Positions 2,750 to 10,004 of a stretch of DNA of 17,312 nucleotides are shown piece by piece. This stretch comes from Chloromonas sp. AAM2 (lineage: Eukaryota; Chlorophyta; Chlorophyceae; Chlamydomonadales; Chlamydomonadaceae): assembly GCA_004335635.1 (NCBI GenBank), contig QAXH01003518.1, forward strand, positions 1 to 17,312, in the 5' to 3' direction. The notes below the pieces were generated by a model, which searched no databases, had not been told where the DNA came from, and saw nothing but the letters and a program-made list of their open reading frames with translations. Position 1 is the first letter of the stretch, and each line of letters opens with the position of its first letter. The translations under genes were made by a program, and so were the position numbers.

Positions 2750-5700
2750 TTAGAGCTGTCGGAAGGTCATGTTGATGCGTCCTGGCCTGAGGCCTGTGGC
2801 GGTGACGAGCTGAGCGGGTGCAGTGCCGGGGTAGATGGCGGGCACCTGCACAGCACCACACACATGCACTAAGTGTAGCTGCTTACATTACTCATGCGCT
2901 GGTCAAAGGGGTCACACAGAGAAGCGAGGTCTGCCCAAGCCAACTGAAGGTACATGATACTGAGGTGTAAGAACAATGAAGGCCGCATCACAGCCGATCA
3001 GGGTACAGAGGCGACAAAACACCCGCAGTCAAAAGACATGCTAAATAAGGCTCAGGCAAGGGCAAGCGGATGGCTGATCACAGATGCAAGACTCATGCAG
3101 AGGTGGGATGGGATTGCGTGCTGGCCACACACACCCCGTGGAAGACCAGGCGCGCAGGGCCACCAAACACAAGCACGTCACCCGACTTGAGCCGCACAGC
3201 CTGTGCATTTTCCTGTGCAGGCAAAAGCAGGCGGCATAGTGAAGCACTAAGTGCGATACCTGCAAGATAAATGACCTGGTTTCGGGGCAATTGTGTGTAG
3301 GTGCACATAAGGGGTGCAAGCAGAAACACACTGATACGTAATAGTGCATGTAGCCTACAAGCAGGCGGCAATACAAGTCGACAACGTGAATTTTGCTCAT
3401 CTGTGTCAAGGTGCTCACAGGCTGTGTAAGCATGCATCTTTGTCTAATCACGCGCTAGGGTCAATGTGGCCTACCTCATCCGGTCCCATGCCAAAGAGGA
3501 AATCACACGTGTCGCCAATGGAAAAGGACACCACAGGGGTGCCACGCCGCAAACTTTCACTCGTTTCATCCCTGTCCTGTCAACAACAAACACATGCAAC
3601 AGGCCTAGTCAGCTTCAAGTTGACGGGCGCGCAGTGCCTGATTTCTTTACTATGGGAAGGCAGGGCGTGCTTCTGTTCCATCCCACCACCAGACAGTTTA
3701 ATCCCACAAGCAGAGAACTCAACGGGTTCCAGCTGGCATGAAGCTTGTCTTATGGTAGGCCCTGATAATGGGCCAATGGCAAGCGAGTCAGGCTGCCGCA
3801 AAATGTACATGCAGAGGTTGAAGCAGTGGCAGCTAACTGGCGTCAGGATCTCACTTGATGCAGTCCCAGACGGCCGGTCTTGTCATAATAGTTGACCAGG
3901 CAGATGTCAGGACTCAGGGAGGGGAGTGTCACGCCCTGACTCTTCTCAGCCTGGGAAGCAAATGGAACAGCAACCGAAGCGATTGGGCTCGACTCGATTG
4001 GGCGCGAACTCGAAGCGAGAGAAAGAGAGAGAGAGAGAGATTGTTGCTGGCTGTTGCTACGTACGTATGTTGCCACATAATATGCCAATTGCAGTGTGTC
4101 CTGCTAGGTGGCTGCTGGTGTTCGTTCTTGCTTGTGAGGCTGCTGTTTCTACTCCGTTGCACAGTTCTGGGTGGTCATTTGATCAGCTGGGCCCGCCTTT
4201 GTACGTGTGAGAGCCTCTGCCTTTTCTTATACAAGCTCCCTTGGTACGCGACCACAGCTCTGCCAGACAGCACACCAGGCCGCACCTGTTGGCTGGCAGC
4301 GTTCAGCGCCTGCGCGCACAGCTCCTGGAAGCGGGCGGGCAGGGCGGGCGGGGCGCAGCCGTCAAACACGCGCACGCGCTCATAGCTGTGTGTGCGCGGC
4401 TCCCAGTGAAGGCCTGAGGCCAGGGCATGAACACATGGCAAGGCTTGCATTCCATCAGGTATCCAGTACTGCTGCAAGAGCTCACAGCCGTAGTGACCAC
4501 ATGGGCTGCAGTGAGGGCATGGGCAGATAGCAAGGCTGGCAGCCCAGGAACAAGGTCATGTACACTTCCTATGCGCAACAGAACACAAAAGCCAAAATCA
4601 GAAGCGGACAGTCGACAGCAAAGTGGAAAAAGGTTTGGTGAAGGTGAAGGATTGGCACGCATGTTCGCTCGAGTGCTGTGAATGGCCTGCCAGGAGGCTG
4701 TGATGCTCAGTTGGATGGTGGGCCCTGCACTCACCAAGACACATCATGCGTAAGTGCATGACGCGGCCATGGCCGTACGTTGGCTGGTAGAATCCGCCTT
4801 GTGCGCTGCCCAGCTCCCTGCAAACACAAGTGCAAGGTTTCACGCAGCGGCAGTGGTGGGAACAGGGGGTGGATGGATGCAAGACAATAGATGCAAGACA
4901 ATGGATGCAAGACAGGCCAGCAGTGCAAAACAATCTGCTGAATGGATATACAACCATGGGATATACAACCATGGGATTTGTTGTGCGTGTGGTCTGCCTT
5001 AAAGCATGCGCCCGCACAAGGCGCCTAATCATCAGAATGTGCTCAAGCTTACACTTGCGGTACATGCACCGCTGTGCCTGCCAACGCGACCATCAAAGCG
5101 GTTCCTCCTTGTGCGATGCATGTGGAGCTTCTACTTGTCATTGAACAAGAATGTGCACAAGTGCCCGCGCCTGAGTGCTCTCACCGGAGTGCTCTCACCG
5201 GAGTGCTCTCACCGGAGTGCTCTCACCGGAGTGCTCTCACCTGAGTGCCCTGACCAGCTCTTCTTGCACGGCCAGAGATAGCCACCCGCGCAGCAGCACC
5301 ATACCGGGGGGCAGAGCTGCTGGGTCTGTGACCTCACGCTCAAGCCTTCAGGGCAGGTGCGGCAGTGCAGTGTGTGCAGAGGGTGAGTGATTGAGTGAGT
5401 GAGTGATTGAGCGAGTGAGTGAGTGAGCGAGTGTTTTTTACATCGATATCGTCCAGTGCGACTAAATTCAACAGTACCGGGAGCACGATGAAGGACAGCC
5501 AACGATATCCAAGTGCAGATTTACTGCCAGTGTACCGAGAAACCGAAACGCACAAGGCCATACCCGATACCACAAGCAAGCACAAGCAAGCAAGTACATG
5601 CGTGGCACGGGCACCAGACCACCCTGTGACCTGGCAAAGGCATACATCATCATTCTTTCAAGCATCTCTTGCATTTGCATGCCCTCTTATGGCCTGGCAA

Positions 5701-8700: not shown

Positions 8701-10004
8701 CAGGTCATGGTGCCATGTGGTGAGGGGTGTGGTGTGGAGCCACACAGCATCAGCTGCAAGAGGGCCAGAGGAACCCGGAGGTGGCGCAGATAATAGGCAA
8801 GTTCAACAGTCTCAGTGTCAGGCCTCTGGCGTTCATAGCACTGCCTGCCGACCGGCAGACCACAGGCTGGACTGAATGTGGTTGGGCAGCCCACTGAGCA
8901 TGCAGCTATCAGATTGCCACTTCATATGTGGCTCCATGGGTAGATCCTTGGCGAGTCGGTCAGAGCCAACCTGCTTCTACTTCCTGTCTTACCTGCGGTT
9001 TTGATTTTCCCTCCCTGCTTGAATATCCCCATGACCTTGTTGCCGCCCGGTGCTGCGGGGCTTGACTTGCTGTTTGCCTCCGCTGCTTCTGCAGCCTTCC
9101 GCTGAAGGGCCCCTTGCTCTGCACCGGCAGCAAGAATGCATCTGATGTCAAGCACACGTGTGCACTGCCTCTGACAGCAGCTGCCCGTGGCCTTGGGCAT
9201 GGATGGGGTGGCTACAATCCGGCATCGAGTGCGCCAGATCCGCAGACGCAGCAGTCCACTGTAAGCATATGGGTGATAACCTCGAATAAGACGTGAGGCT
9301 GCCAATTGTACCAGGATCAGCACCTTGCTTTGCACAAGCCACTACAAGAGTCGGATTGAAACTCATCACAAATTATTCCCAAGAACTTTGATAATGATAA
9401 CCTTGCTTGTTGCAGTTTCCAGTCCAGTGCCAAATTCGTGCAGTGTGGGCCGGCCTGCTCACCCAGGCGCTGGCCAGGCCTCCGCTCGCCTCACACTGTC
9501 CCAACCCTGCACCATATTACCTGAACCCATGCCATACAACACACACTGCACACCCATCGGTTGATGCCTCCATGCCCATGCCCATGCCACGCTTACCTGC
9601 ATCCCGTGCTTTCAGGAAAGAGTTGATGGCGATGTTGGCCGCGCTCCGGACGACAAGGTCAGGAGGCAGGTAGGCCTGCAAGGACAATCACAAGACGACG
9701 TGCTGCATGTACCATGTCATTGCCAGCTGCCGGCTGTCTGAGCTTGCGTGTACCTGACCCTGACCTGCGTGCACATGCGACAACTTGGCTGTGCATGGCA
9801 TGCACTGCATGAGCATGACGATGGACTGGCATGCACATCAGCAACCCGTGGAAGGTGTGGTACCTCGACGATGCCATGGATTTCTTGACGTCCGCTCTGA
9901 GCGATGGTGTCTACAACAGAAGACACCGTGCCGCGATCCCAATCCAGAAGAAGCCGTCCCAGTTCATCCGCCAGATCGTCGATCGTCTCCACATCCTTGC
10001 CCAT
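2750..10004 (-). CDS. ASC-1 (TRIP4)-like / AlkB dioxygenase fusion, 727 aa
   Basis: Exons on the minus strand: 10004-9864, 9675-9597, 9118-8993, 8684-8588, 8348-8299, 7806-7536, 7423-7402 (tentative), 7120-7035, 6825-6321, 5923-5805, 5345-5241, 4817-4735, 4413-4286, 3950-3855, 3576-3475, 3212-3135, 2845-2750. They total 2184 nt, in frame throughout, all with GT-AG introns. The start ATG is preceded 15 nt upstream by an in-frame TAG. Residues 1-459 resemble activating signal cointegrator 1 and 460-727 a plant ALKBH1-like 2-oxoglutarate/Fe(II) dioxygenase. ASC-1 belongs to the ASCC complex (transcription coactivation, alkylation repair, ribosome quality control); AlkB enzymes demethylate nucleic acids oxidatively. 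The join between halves (intron 5924-6320) has canonical sites and phase 0, with a length typical of this gene. A split into two adjacent genes remains possible because an in-frame stop (6300-6302) and a TGTAA (6204-6208) lie in that intron. Both families are fairly certain; the fusion is inferred. Confidence 0.65.
4017..4042. repeat. GA-rich microsatellite in an AlkB-half intron
   Basis: A run of GAGAGAGA-type repeats on the plus strand (CT-rich on the coding strand) lies in the intron 3951-4285, about 65-90 nt upstream of the acceptor that precedes the HQD exon. It may act as an extra pyrimidine tract; otherwise it is simple sequence. Confidence 0.8.
4876..4973. repeat. Two short tandem repeats in intron 4818-5240
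   Basis: Unit GATGCAAGACAATG occurs about 2.9 times from 4876 to 4915 (14-nt period), with one or two changes. Unit GGATATACAACCATG occurs twice perfectly at 4944-4973 (15-nt period). They share the intron with the 14-nt array at 5173-5242. Confidence 0.85.
5173..5242 (-). repeat. Five-copy 14-nt minisatellite copying a 5' splice site
   Basis: Five head-to-tail 14-nt units start at 5173, 5187, 5201, 5215 and 5229 on the plus strand (GAGTGCTCTCACCG). Read on the coding minus strand, each unit contains GTGAGAG, a consensus donor. The gene's own donor (exon end 5241, intron from 5240) is in the first unit. Use of any later donor adds an immediate in-frame TGA, so only the first keeps the AlkB frame open. 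Confidence 0.85.
5383..5433. repeat. GAGT/GATT tetranucleotide repeat
   Basis: About 12 units of GAGT with GATT and GAGC variants lie in the intron 5346-5804, roughly 40 nt upstream of its acceptor. On the coding strand this reads as CACT/CAAT, a pyrimidine-rich tract next to a weak CCTGAAG acceptor, and it may help define that splice site. Confidence 0.8.
6204..6208 (-). terminator. Candidate internal TGTAA poly(A) motif
   Basis: A TGTAA on the coding strand lies inside the intron joining the ASC-1 and AlkB halves, about 92 nt past the stop met if that intron is retained (6300-6302). If used, it would end a free ASC-1-like transcript. A five-base motif in a 397-nt intron is expected by chance fairly often. 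Confidence 0.25.
6321..10004 (-). other. TRIP4: ASC-1/TRIP4-like half (residues 1-459)
   Basis: The N-terminus (residues 1-75) aligns in pattern with the helical N-terminus of TRIP4 (VVDTIAQSGRQEIHGIVEAY against the human region before its charged linker). Residues 116-178 carry a zinc motif, with NCLGCG then QCTFCG (Cys143, 146, 170, 173), matching part of the zf-C2HC5 finger. A Pro/Ser/Thr/Ala-rich linker follows (about 179-235), then FKNRLVQYDRE, then VIDDQSDYFELETNAWLSD, the best TRIP4 signature (human has VIDDESDYF). After it come a charged helix and TIDLMGRRVLV (human TIDFAGRKILE). A 505-nt exon then gives a low-complexity stretch ending RLQDNLAEVFDEFET. There is no ASCH domain, which human TRIP4 has C-terminally. 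Identity as an ASC-1 homologue is confident; the partner complex in this organism is inferred. Confidence 0.85.
7872..8048. repeat. ATCC/ATCT tetranucleotide microsatellite
   Basis: About 175 nt of CATC/TATC/CATT-type tetranucleotides (plus strand CATCCATCTATC...) fill part of the intron 7807-8298. On the coding strand it is purine-rich GGAT/AGAT. It makes long spurious open frames on the plus strand. Confidence 0.93.

Follow-up and report, generated by a model that had tools for sequence, protein, structure and literature searches.

Human TRIP4 carries two zinc sites (C171/C173/H178/C192 and C184/C187/C200/C203), a lasso (residues 375-424), and an ASCH domain (residues 425-578), and its zinc finger alone is enough for stable docking to the helicase ASCC3 in vitro. 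In the ASCC3-TRIP4 assembly, the ASCH domain is positioned close to the strand exit, and ASCC3 binds either TRIP4 or the AlkB enzyme ALKBH3, but not both at once (available text of PMC10076317). In rice, OsALKBH1 demethylates N6-methyladenine (6mA) in single-stranded DNA in vitro, and plants without OsALKBH1 show a rise of 6mA in R-loop regions (available text of PMC10469495). Here, we describe a gene of the green alga Chloromonas sp. AAM2 that joins a TRIP4-type half to an AlkB domain in one reading frame. It occupies positions 2750..10004 on the minus strand of contig QAXH01003518.1, whose entire 17,312 nucleotides were analysed and are called the window below.

Gene model and domain content

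The fused gene consists of 17 exons, with the start codon at 10004-10002 and the stop codon at 2752-2750 (all features of the gene lie on the minus strand). Rebuilding the splice model yields 2178 bases in a single frame, which encode 725 residues and a stop. All 16 introns are of the GT-AG type and measure 96-492 bases (median ∼305), and homologues match across most of the length of the protein; a Dunaliella protein aligns with E = 5.9e-165 across 86% of the joined protein, a likeness well outside what chance would give. Pfam places TRIP4_3rd at residues 264-315 (E = 5.5e-17; 62.3 bits at a cut-off of 27.7) and a complete 2OG-FeII_Oxy_2 (AlkB) domain at residues 511-723 (profile positions 1-194 of 194, E = 1.8e-47). 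Frame, introns, and domains agree with the original prediction, which had read 17 in-phase exons linking a TRIP4-type half to a complete AlkB domain from the DNA letters; the motifs VIDDQSDYF and TIDLMGRR that it named are present, as is a Cys-x2-Cys...Cys-x2-Cys finger.

The two halves meet at intron 9 (5924..6320, phase 0, GTATGT...TGCAG), between residues 457 and 458. With 397 bases, this intron falls within the above range, in keeping with the likeness in length to its neighbours that had been noted. The exon 9/exon 10 join sits in PRLQDNLAEVFDEFETQ|VLHSEVEAAILAAEASTPFDLCP, inside a segment that is collinear with relatives. Over the 46 residues around the join, Haematococcus shares 28 identities, C. 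eustigma 21, Dunaliella 19, Edaphochlamys, Gonium, Astrephomene, and Bryopsis 14-15 each, and the gene model P0019 (numbers with P denote database proteins) shares 7. This collinearity lends strong, if indirect, support to splicing from 6321 to 5923 in Chloromonas. Several contigs of just 2.1-3.1 kb carry a fused frame without interruption (P0015, P0020, P0021, P0024, P0012, and P0023), and the record P0031 carries a name of the assembled-transcript type; these lengths and this name suggest a spliced fused mRNA.

Alternatively, TRIP4 and AlkB might be two adjacent genes wrongly joined across 6320-5924, with an AlkB transcript that begins inside the intron. Intron 9 does contain a single TGTAA (6208) and, a short distance ahead of exon 10, an ATG in frame, and P0019, from a related alga, ends near the position of the joining intron. 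However, TGTAA is also found in other introns of the fused gene (8100, 6944, 6893, 5442, 5053, and 2887). The collinearity of the joined segment with the Haematococcus and Dunaliella proteins and the recurrence of the architecture in 31 proteins, several of them from short transcript-like contigs, lead us to reject a false join, to which we assign a very low probability.

P0019 itself (549 amino acids, contig of 13858 bases) is an algal TRIP4 half whose model ends soon after the joining-intron position, and the AlkB exons of its gene were probably missed in annotation. Like the window protein, P0019 lacks the cysteine at the C192 position.

Two repeats lie within the Chloromonas gene. Intron 5 holds a CATC-type tandem array of ∼43 copies (7866-8045), and a 14-base unit is repeated in 5.4 copies at 5173-5248, across the exon 11 donor. 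Because this unit repeats the donor-like GGTGAGAG, alternative exon 11 donors are possible.

The TRIP4-type half

A profile built from 12 fused proteins aligns with residues 18-431 of human TRIP4 (chain 8alz_A, E = 1.1e-48) and with yeast Rqt4 (7zpq, E = 2.5e-10). According to the splice model and this alignment, exons 1-3 (10004-9864, 9675-9597, and 9118-8993; span 8993..10004) encode the N-terminal region of the TRIP4-type half. The TRIP4_3rd domain (VIDDQSDYF ... TIDLMGRR; 6747..7111) is encoded by exons 8 and 9 (7120-7035 and 6825-6321), and the fused locus is its sole match in the genome (74.4 Mb, 2324 contigs searched). Alignment with the human lasso, as delimited in PMC10076317, places a lasso-like segment in exon 9 (∼residues 390-446, NPNIPTSAPRFV ... 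PRLQDN; 6354..6524). Its motif (NPN...P.FV ... R.Q) is kept in the green fused proteins, except for the Gonium model, which is without it. Exon 10 (5805..5923) encodes a linker with a conserved FDLC motif (residues 476-479); FD[IL]C is found in 26 of 30 fused rows, YDIC in three, and FNLC in one.

The alignment to human TRIP4 stops at the start of ASCH. Judged by this alignment, AlkB occupies the ASCH position, directly downstream of the TRIP4 lasso and the linker. Pfam detects no ASCH domain in the window protein, and the whole genome gives no ASCH match at E ≤ 1.

The half finger that remains (residues 143-174, NCLGCG...CTFCG; 7778..8604) is encoded within exons 4-6 (8684-8588, 8348-8299, and 7806-7536). 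When aligned to the human ligands of PMC10076317, the window protein keeps four of eight: the equivalents of C184/C187/C200/C203 are present, and those of C171/C173/H178/C192 are gone. The Cys-rich finger of the original prediction is thus there, but only as half of a C2HC5 finger. Pfam zf-C2HC5 (PF06221) is not matched in the window protein, and the genome gives six sub-threshold matches to this family (best E = 0.058), none of them at the fused locus.

We counted ligands over 30 fused rows, namely the window protein, 28 of 31 database proteins, and the truncated Ginkgo protein P0036; P0006 (which shares its gene name with P0004), P0021, and P0030 were left out here and in the TRIP4 tree. Ten rows are from chlorophytes, two of which were assigned by tree position. 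The second zinc set is kept in all ten, and the C192 position is cysteine in nine and arginine in the window protein. All eight ligands are present in 19 of 20 streptophyte fused rows (the Marchantia model is without the segment) and in 9 of 9 stand-alone TRIP4 proteins.

The AlkB half is of the OsALKBH1 type

The AlkB domain (2759..5305) is encoded by exons 11-17 (5345-5241, 4817-4735, 4413-4286, 3950-3855, 3576-3475, 3212-3135, and 2845-2750), as located by Pfam and by sequence match to the structure database. Alignment with E. coli AlkB identifies the iron-binding HQD motif (residues 633-635; 3860-3855 and 3576-3574), and ligand alignment the second iron-binding histidine (residue 693; 3138..3140) and the 2-oxoglutarate arginine (residue 717 in GRINMTFR; 2777..2779). 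All 36 plant rows, the window among them, retain the three iron residues (H, D, and H) and this arginine.

The structure nearest to the window AlkB by sequence is the rice protein 5xeg/5xoi (E = 6.2e-66), followed by E. coli AlkB and then ALKBH1; ALKBH3 is not among the 21 structure-database sequence matches. We equated 5xeg/5xoi by name with LOC_Os03g60190 of PMC10469495. A predicted model of the C. eustigma protein P0003 has a mean predicted local distance difference test score (pLDDT) of 69, with 77-98 by blocks of ten in the AlkB part. A fold search with this model returns OsALKBH1 (5xeg) first, with E = 1.8e-27 and a TM-score of 0.90 by target; ALKBH2 and ALKBH3 appear from rank 37 on, ALKBH3 first at rank 38. 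By sequence, by the predicted fold of this close relative, and by the trees described below, the AlkB half is of the plant OsALKBH1 type. By homology with OsALKBH1, the fused protein would catalyse the oxidative demethylation of nucleic acid.

The genome scan for the AlkB family returned the fused locus, a second AlkB exon on contig C1477 (∼2460-2700 of L022, G000:C1477:50500-55500) whose best matches are ALKBH3 and ALKBH2, and a weak match below the cut-off on C2225. The order of the sequence matches, the fold rank, and this separate ALKBH2/3-like exon lead us to reject ALKBH3 orthology; the AlkB half does not correspond to human ALKBH3, the AlkB enzyme that the original prediction had in mind.

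Distribution of the fused architecture

A search with the whole window protein gave 19 matches, 14 of which contain both Pfam domains (this search and that with P0015 below scored the 7994 candidates sharing most words). These 14 include proteins of Dunaliella, Haematococcus, C. eustigma, Edaphochlamys (two models of one gene), Gonium, Astrephomene, Bryopsis, and Cryptomeria and a record labelled Mesen1, which we take to be Mesotaenium. The conifer-like fused protein P0015 found 533 matches. Among the best 120, both domains occur in 20, including Taxus, Cryptomeria, Diphasiastrum, two Riccia, Marchantia, Calypogeia, Ceratodon, Sphagnum, Ceratopteris, and Closterium, and 99, for the most part from named flowering plants, are AlkB-only. 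The remaining row, Ginkgo P0036, has only TRIP4 domains by Pfam and continues past the linker into the first AlkB residues. Together, at least 31 distinct proteins (three common to both lists) possess both domains in the same order, and they come from chlorophytes, zygnematophytes, mosses, liverworts, a lycophyte, a fern, and conifers.

With the TRIP4 part of P0015 as query, 280 matches were obtained, and the best 120 consist of 115 TRIP4 proteins without AlkB (mostly from flowering plants) and five fused proteins. No named flowering-plant protein contains both domains among the matches listed (the best 120 of 533 and of 280). Fused and stand-alone TRIP4 coexist in Cryptomeria (P0014 and P0232) and Ginkgo (P0036 and P0242).

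The architecture is built of known parts, old, widely kept, and not restricted to Chloromonas. The natural TRIP4-AlkB fusion without ASCH that had been predicted is supported, and it is an old one, but it is not peculiar to this alga; in other chlorophytes, where a search for such proteins had been suggested, fused proteins were returned from Dunaliella, Haematococcus, C. eustigma, Gonium, Bryopsis, and others.

A different combination was seen in P0010 from Smallanthus (daisy family), in which Pfam detects RRM and AlkB; by eye, two AlkB domains flank the RRM.

Trees of the two halves

The AlkB trees comprise 29 fused rows (Ginkgo P0036 has no AlkB core) and seven of the 103 AlkB-only proteins among the matches listed for the window protein and for P0015, some of which occur in both lists. 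A tree with E. coli AlkB as the sole outgroup placed the root on the window's own branch; it was discarded and replaced by a tree with ten bacterial rows, made up of E. coli AlkB and 9 of 80 fetched bacterial loci. In this tree, all green rows lie on one side of a branch (support 99/98). The seven AlkB-only rows of flowering plants form a clade (100/97) that joins four gymnosperm-type fused rows, including two named conifers (100/99 together; 88/55 only for the four by themselves), and the combined group is nested within the streptophyte rows (99/99). The closest bacterial AlkB proteins among the 80 loci are from Acidobacteriota (L058, L059, and L060; up to 47% identity), a hint of a bacterial donor of the green OsALKBH1-type AlkB.

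The tree of the TRIP4 half contains the 30 fused rows, nine listed stand-alone proteins, and human TRIP4 as the outgroup, at which long branches meet. It recovers a chlorophyte clade (100/99), a clade of stand-alone seed-plant proteins (99/94), and a clade of fused seed-plant proteins (100/100).

The same domain order and an FD[IL]C-type linker occur in both chlorophytes and streptophytes, so a single fusion before the split of these lineages is probable. In flowering plants, the fused gene was probably split, with the TRIP4 half lost and OsALKBH1-type AlkB proteins left, because the AlkB-only proteins group with gymnosperm fused proteins and the listed flowering-plant proteins are separate. 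By early seed plants, an AlkB-free TRIP4 duplicate appears to have arisen; by eye, the tail of stand-alone TRIP4 resembles the fused linker just ahead of FDIC.

Possible role of the fused protein

We propose, with somewhat more confidence than doubt, that the fused protein is a nucleic-acid demethylase that is carried to its target by the TRIP4 half. The AlkB domain would oxidise a methylated base, as expected from homology, and the TRIP4 half would set the site of this action, by analogy with TRIP4. In the least certain step, the TRIP4 half would also tether the enzyme to a helicase or a ribosome-rescue machine. ASCC3 would be the natural candidate partner in streptophytes, and another partner has to be assumed in Chloromonas. 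By analogy with the human assembly, the green AlkB may sit at the same strand exit as human ASCH.

Several results weigh against this proposal or the history behind it. All ten chlorophyte rows are without C171, C173, and H178 of the docking finger, and ASCC3 was not found in the Chloromonas assembly with the Sec63 family, the winged-helix family, or two human ASCC3 segments. Constraining all fused rows into one clade makes the AlkB tree worse by 20 log-likelihood units, a borderline result in the approximately unbiased test (p = 0.044). The chlorophyte rows do not form one clade in the rooted AlkB tree, whose deep chlorophyte branches are open. In the TRIP4-half tree, the fused seed-plant rows are not placed with the stand-alone ones; the backbone of this tree is open. 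Finally, TRIP4 and AlkB are separate proteins in flowering plants among the matches listed.

Both human ASCC3 segments match contig C1033 best. The Sec63 matches on this contig were rejected as ASCC3, since their best match is Brr2/SNRNP200 (E = 7.2e-93 versus 1.3e-71 for ASCC3). Weaker matches lie on C1053 and C1135, by eye other Ski2-like helicases, and on C1981, where a single open frame reads by eye like a helicase of bacterial type; two further matches, with E under 0.001, lie on C1814 and C2177. Given the failure to find ASCC3 in this assembly and the loss of three zinc-site-1 ligands, the ASCC3 tether is doubtful in Chloromonas and not supported in chlorophytes, and the ASCC3-based reasoning of the original prediction may not carry over to this alga. 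The absence of ASCC3 may be either a true loss or an assembly gap; if it is real, the chlorophyte TRIP4-AlkB protein presumably no longer docks on ASCC3.

Two observations concern the assembly itself. The Brr2/SNRNP200 gene (L021 and L025, G000:C1033) runs off the end of its contig, indicating that the assembly is broken within genes. The match on C1981 (L037, G000:C1981:38566-41092) is an intronless helicase frame of 372 residues that looks bacterial by eye, and the assembly may hold bacterial contigs.

The main rival reading accepts the fusion as real but regards the chlorophyte TRIP4 half as a remnant or mere linker, so that AlkB does all the work, as OsALKBH1 would by itself in rice. The lost ligands and the missing ASCC3 fit this reading, as does the retention of AlkB without TRIP4 in flowering plants (the 99 AlkB-only proteins of the best 120 P0015 matches). 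However, the chlorophyte rows retain TRIP4_3rd and the second zinc site, nearly all of them (not the Gonium model) have the lasso as well, and the fused locus is the only TRIP4-type gene found in the genome. We therefore consider a mere remnant unlikely, although it is the most serious competitor.

It is also conceivable that the protein is bifunctional: a subunit for ribosome rescue or coactivation would be housed in one gene with a demethylase for the sake of co-regulation only, and the two would have unrelated targets. The later separation of the halves in seed plants would be in line with this, given the stand-alone TRIP4 of Cryptomeria and Ginkgo and the separate proteins of the flowering plants listed. 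Against it, proteins from chlorophytes to conifers share one domain order and junction motif, with AlkB at the ASCH position. This constancy points to a functional geometry, and we regard a purely bifunctional protein as improbable.

Beyond a targeted demethylase, a bolder history can be sketched, which we offer as speculation more apt to fail than to hold. At the origin of green plants, TRIP4 would have exchanged ASCH for AlkB and so equipped an ASCC-type machine with an eraser of its own for the strand being processed. Chlorophytes would then have lost ASCC3 and kept a free-standing targeted demethylase, and flowering plants would have cut the protein into OsALKBH1 and a stand-alone TRIP4, halves that would still meet in the cell.

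Other features of the window

The next gene upstream, on the minus strand (11386-14004), is EMC2-like (ER membrane complex subunit 2); its hand-joined exons match human-type EMC2 with E = 3.1e-39. Farther on, two overlapping frames at 16497-16939 (minus strand) resemble a retroelement integrase core by eye and have no Pfam match. Short runs of telomere-like repeats (TTAGGG/TTTAGGG type) lie inside the contig at ∼10220-10250 and 15930-15995, the former ∼220-245 bases upstream of the start codon of the fused gene. Pfam gave no matches on five flank pieces, and Rfam and tRNA scans of the window found none.

Significance and comparison with known systems

When a fusion is split later in evolution, its two parts often turn out to be functional partners. 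From the link described here, one would expect TRIP4 to act in the same pathway as the OsALKBH1-type demethylase in crops and Arabidopsis, be it alkylation damage, 6mA, or stalled-ribosome rescue. If this is true, the plant "ALKBH1" enzymes would gain a machine and a place of action. The altered chlorophyte finger, together with an ASCC3 not found in the Chloromonas genome, would offer a natural experiment on TRIP4 without its helicase.

We found no description of a TRIP4-AlkB fusion in the PubMed Central literature searched, a scope that leaves subscription journals and other preprints outside. The available text of PMC11312118, on microalgal writers and erasers, contains no TRIP4. The nearest precedent is Ginkgo GbALKBH1B, a land-plant ALKBH1 for which one sentence of a 2026 paper mentions a zf-C2HC5 domain (PMC13296198); the main text of that paper, in the form available, contains neither TRIP4 nor fusion. 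GbALKBH1B is very likely the same fusion, as P0036 runs from TRIP4 into the start of AlkB. The original statement that no described protein of this architecture was known thus stands for the fusion within that literature and has to be qualified by this passing mention.

Rice OsALKBH1 and the ALKBH1C/D-type proteins of flowering plants belong to the same AlkB subfamily as the fused proteins, judged by sequence, fold, and tree. Unlike the fused proteins, OsALKBH1 is stand-alone and without a TRIP4 half, and the FDIC linker of the fused proteins is also found in the Oryza nivara protein P0110. With human TRIP4 (8alz) and yeast Rqt4 (7zpq), the fused proteins share the N-terminal region, TRIP4_3rd, the lasso, and the second zinc site. 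In contrast to human TRIP4, the green fused protein possesses AlkB instead of ASCH, and the chlorophyte rows are without C171/C173/H178.

The human ASCC3-ALKBH3 repair pair likewise features an AlkB enzyme that works with an ASCC component, but its members are separate proteins and its AlkB belongs to another subfamily than that of the green fusion. Of the two origins first offered for an ASCC-AlkB link, ancient or arisen twice, the latter fits better than one ancient ASCC-ALKBH3 link, because, if both lineages link AlkB to ASCC, two different AlkB enzymes serve. The green fusion would then represent a second way, with another AlkB enzyme, of coupling AlkB chemistry to an ASCC subunit.

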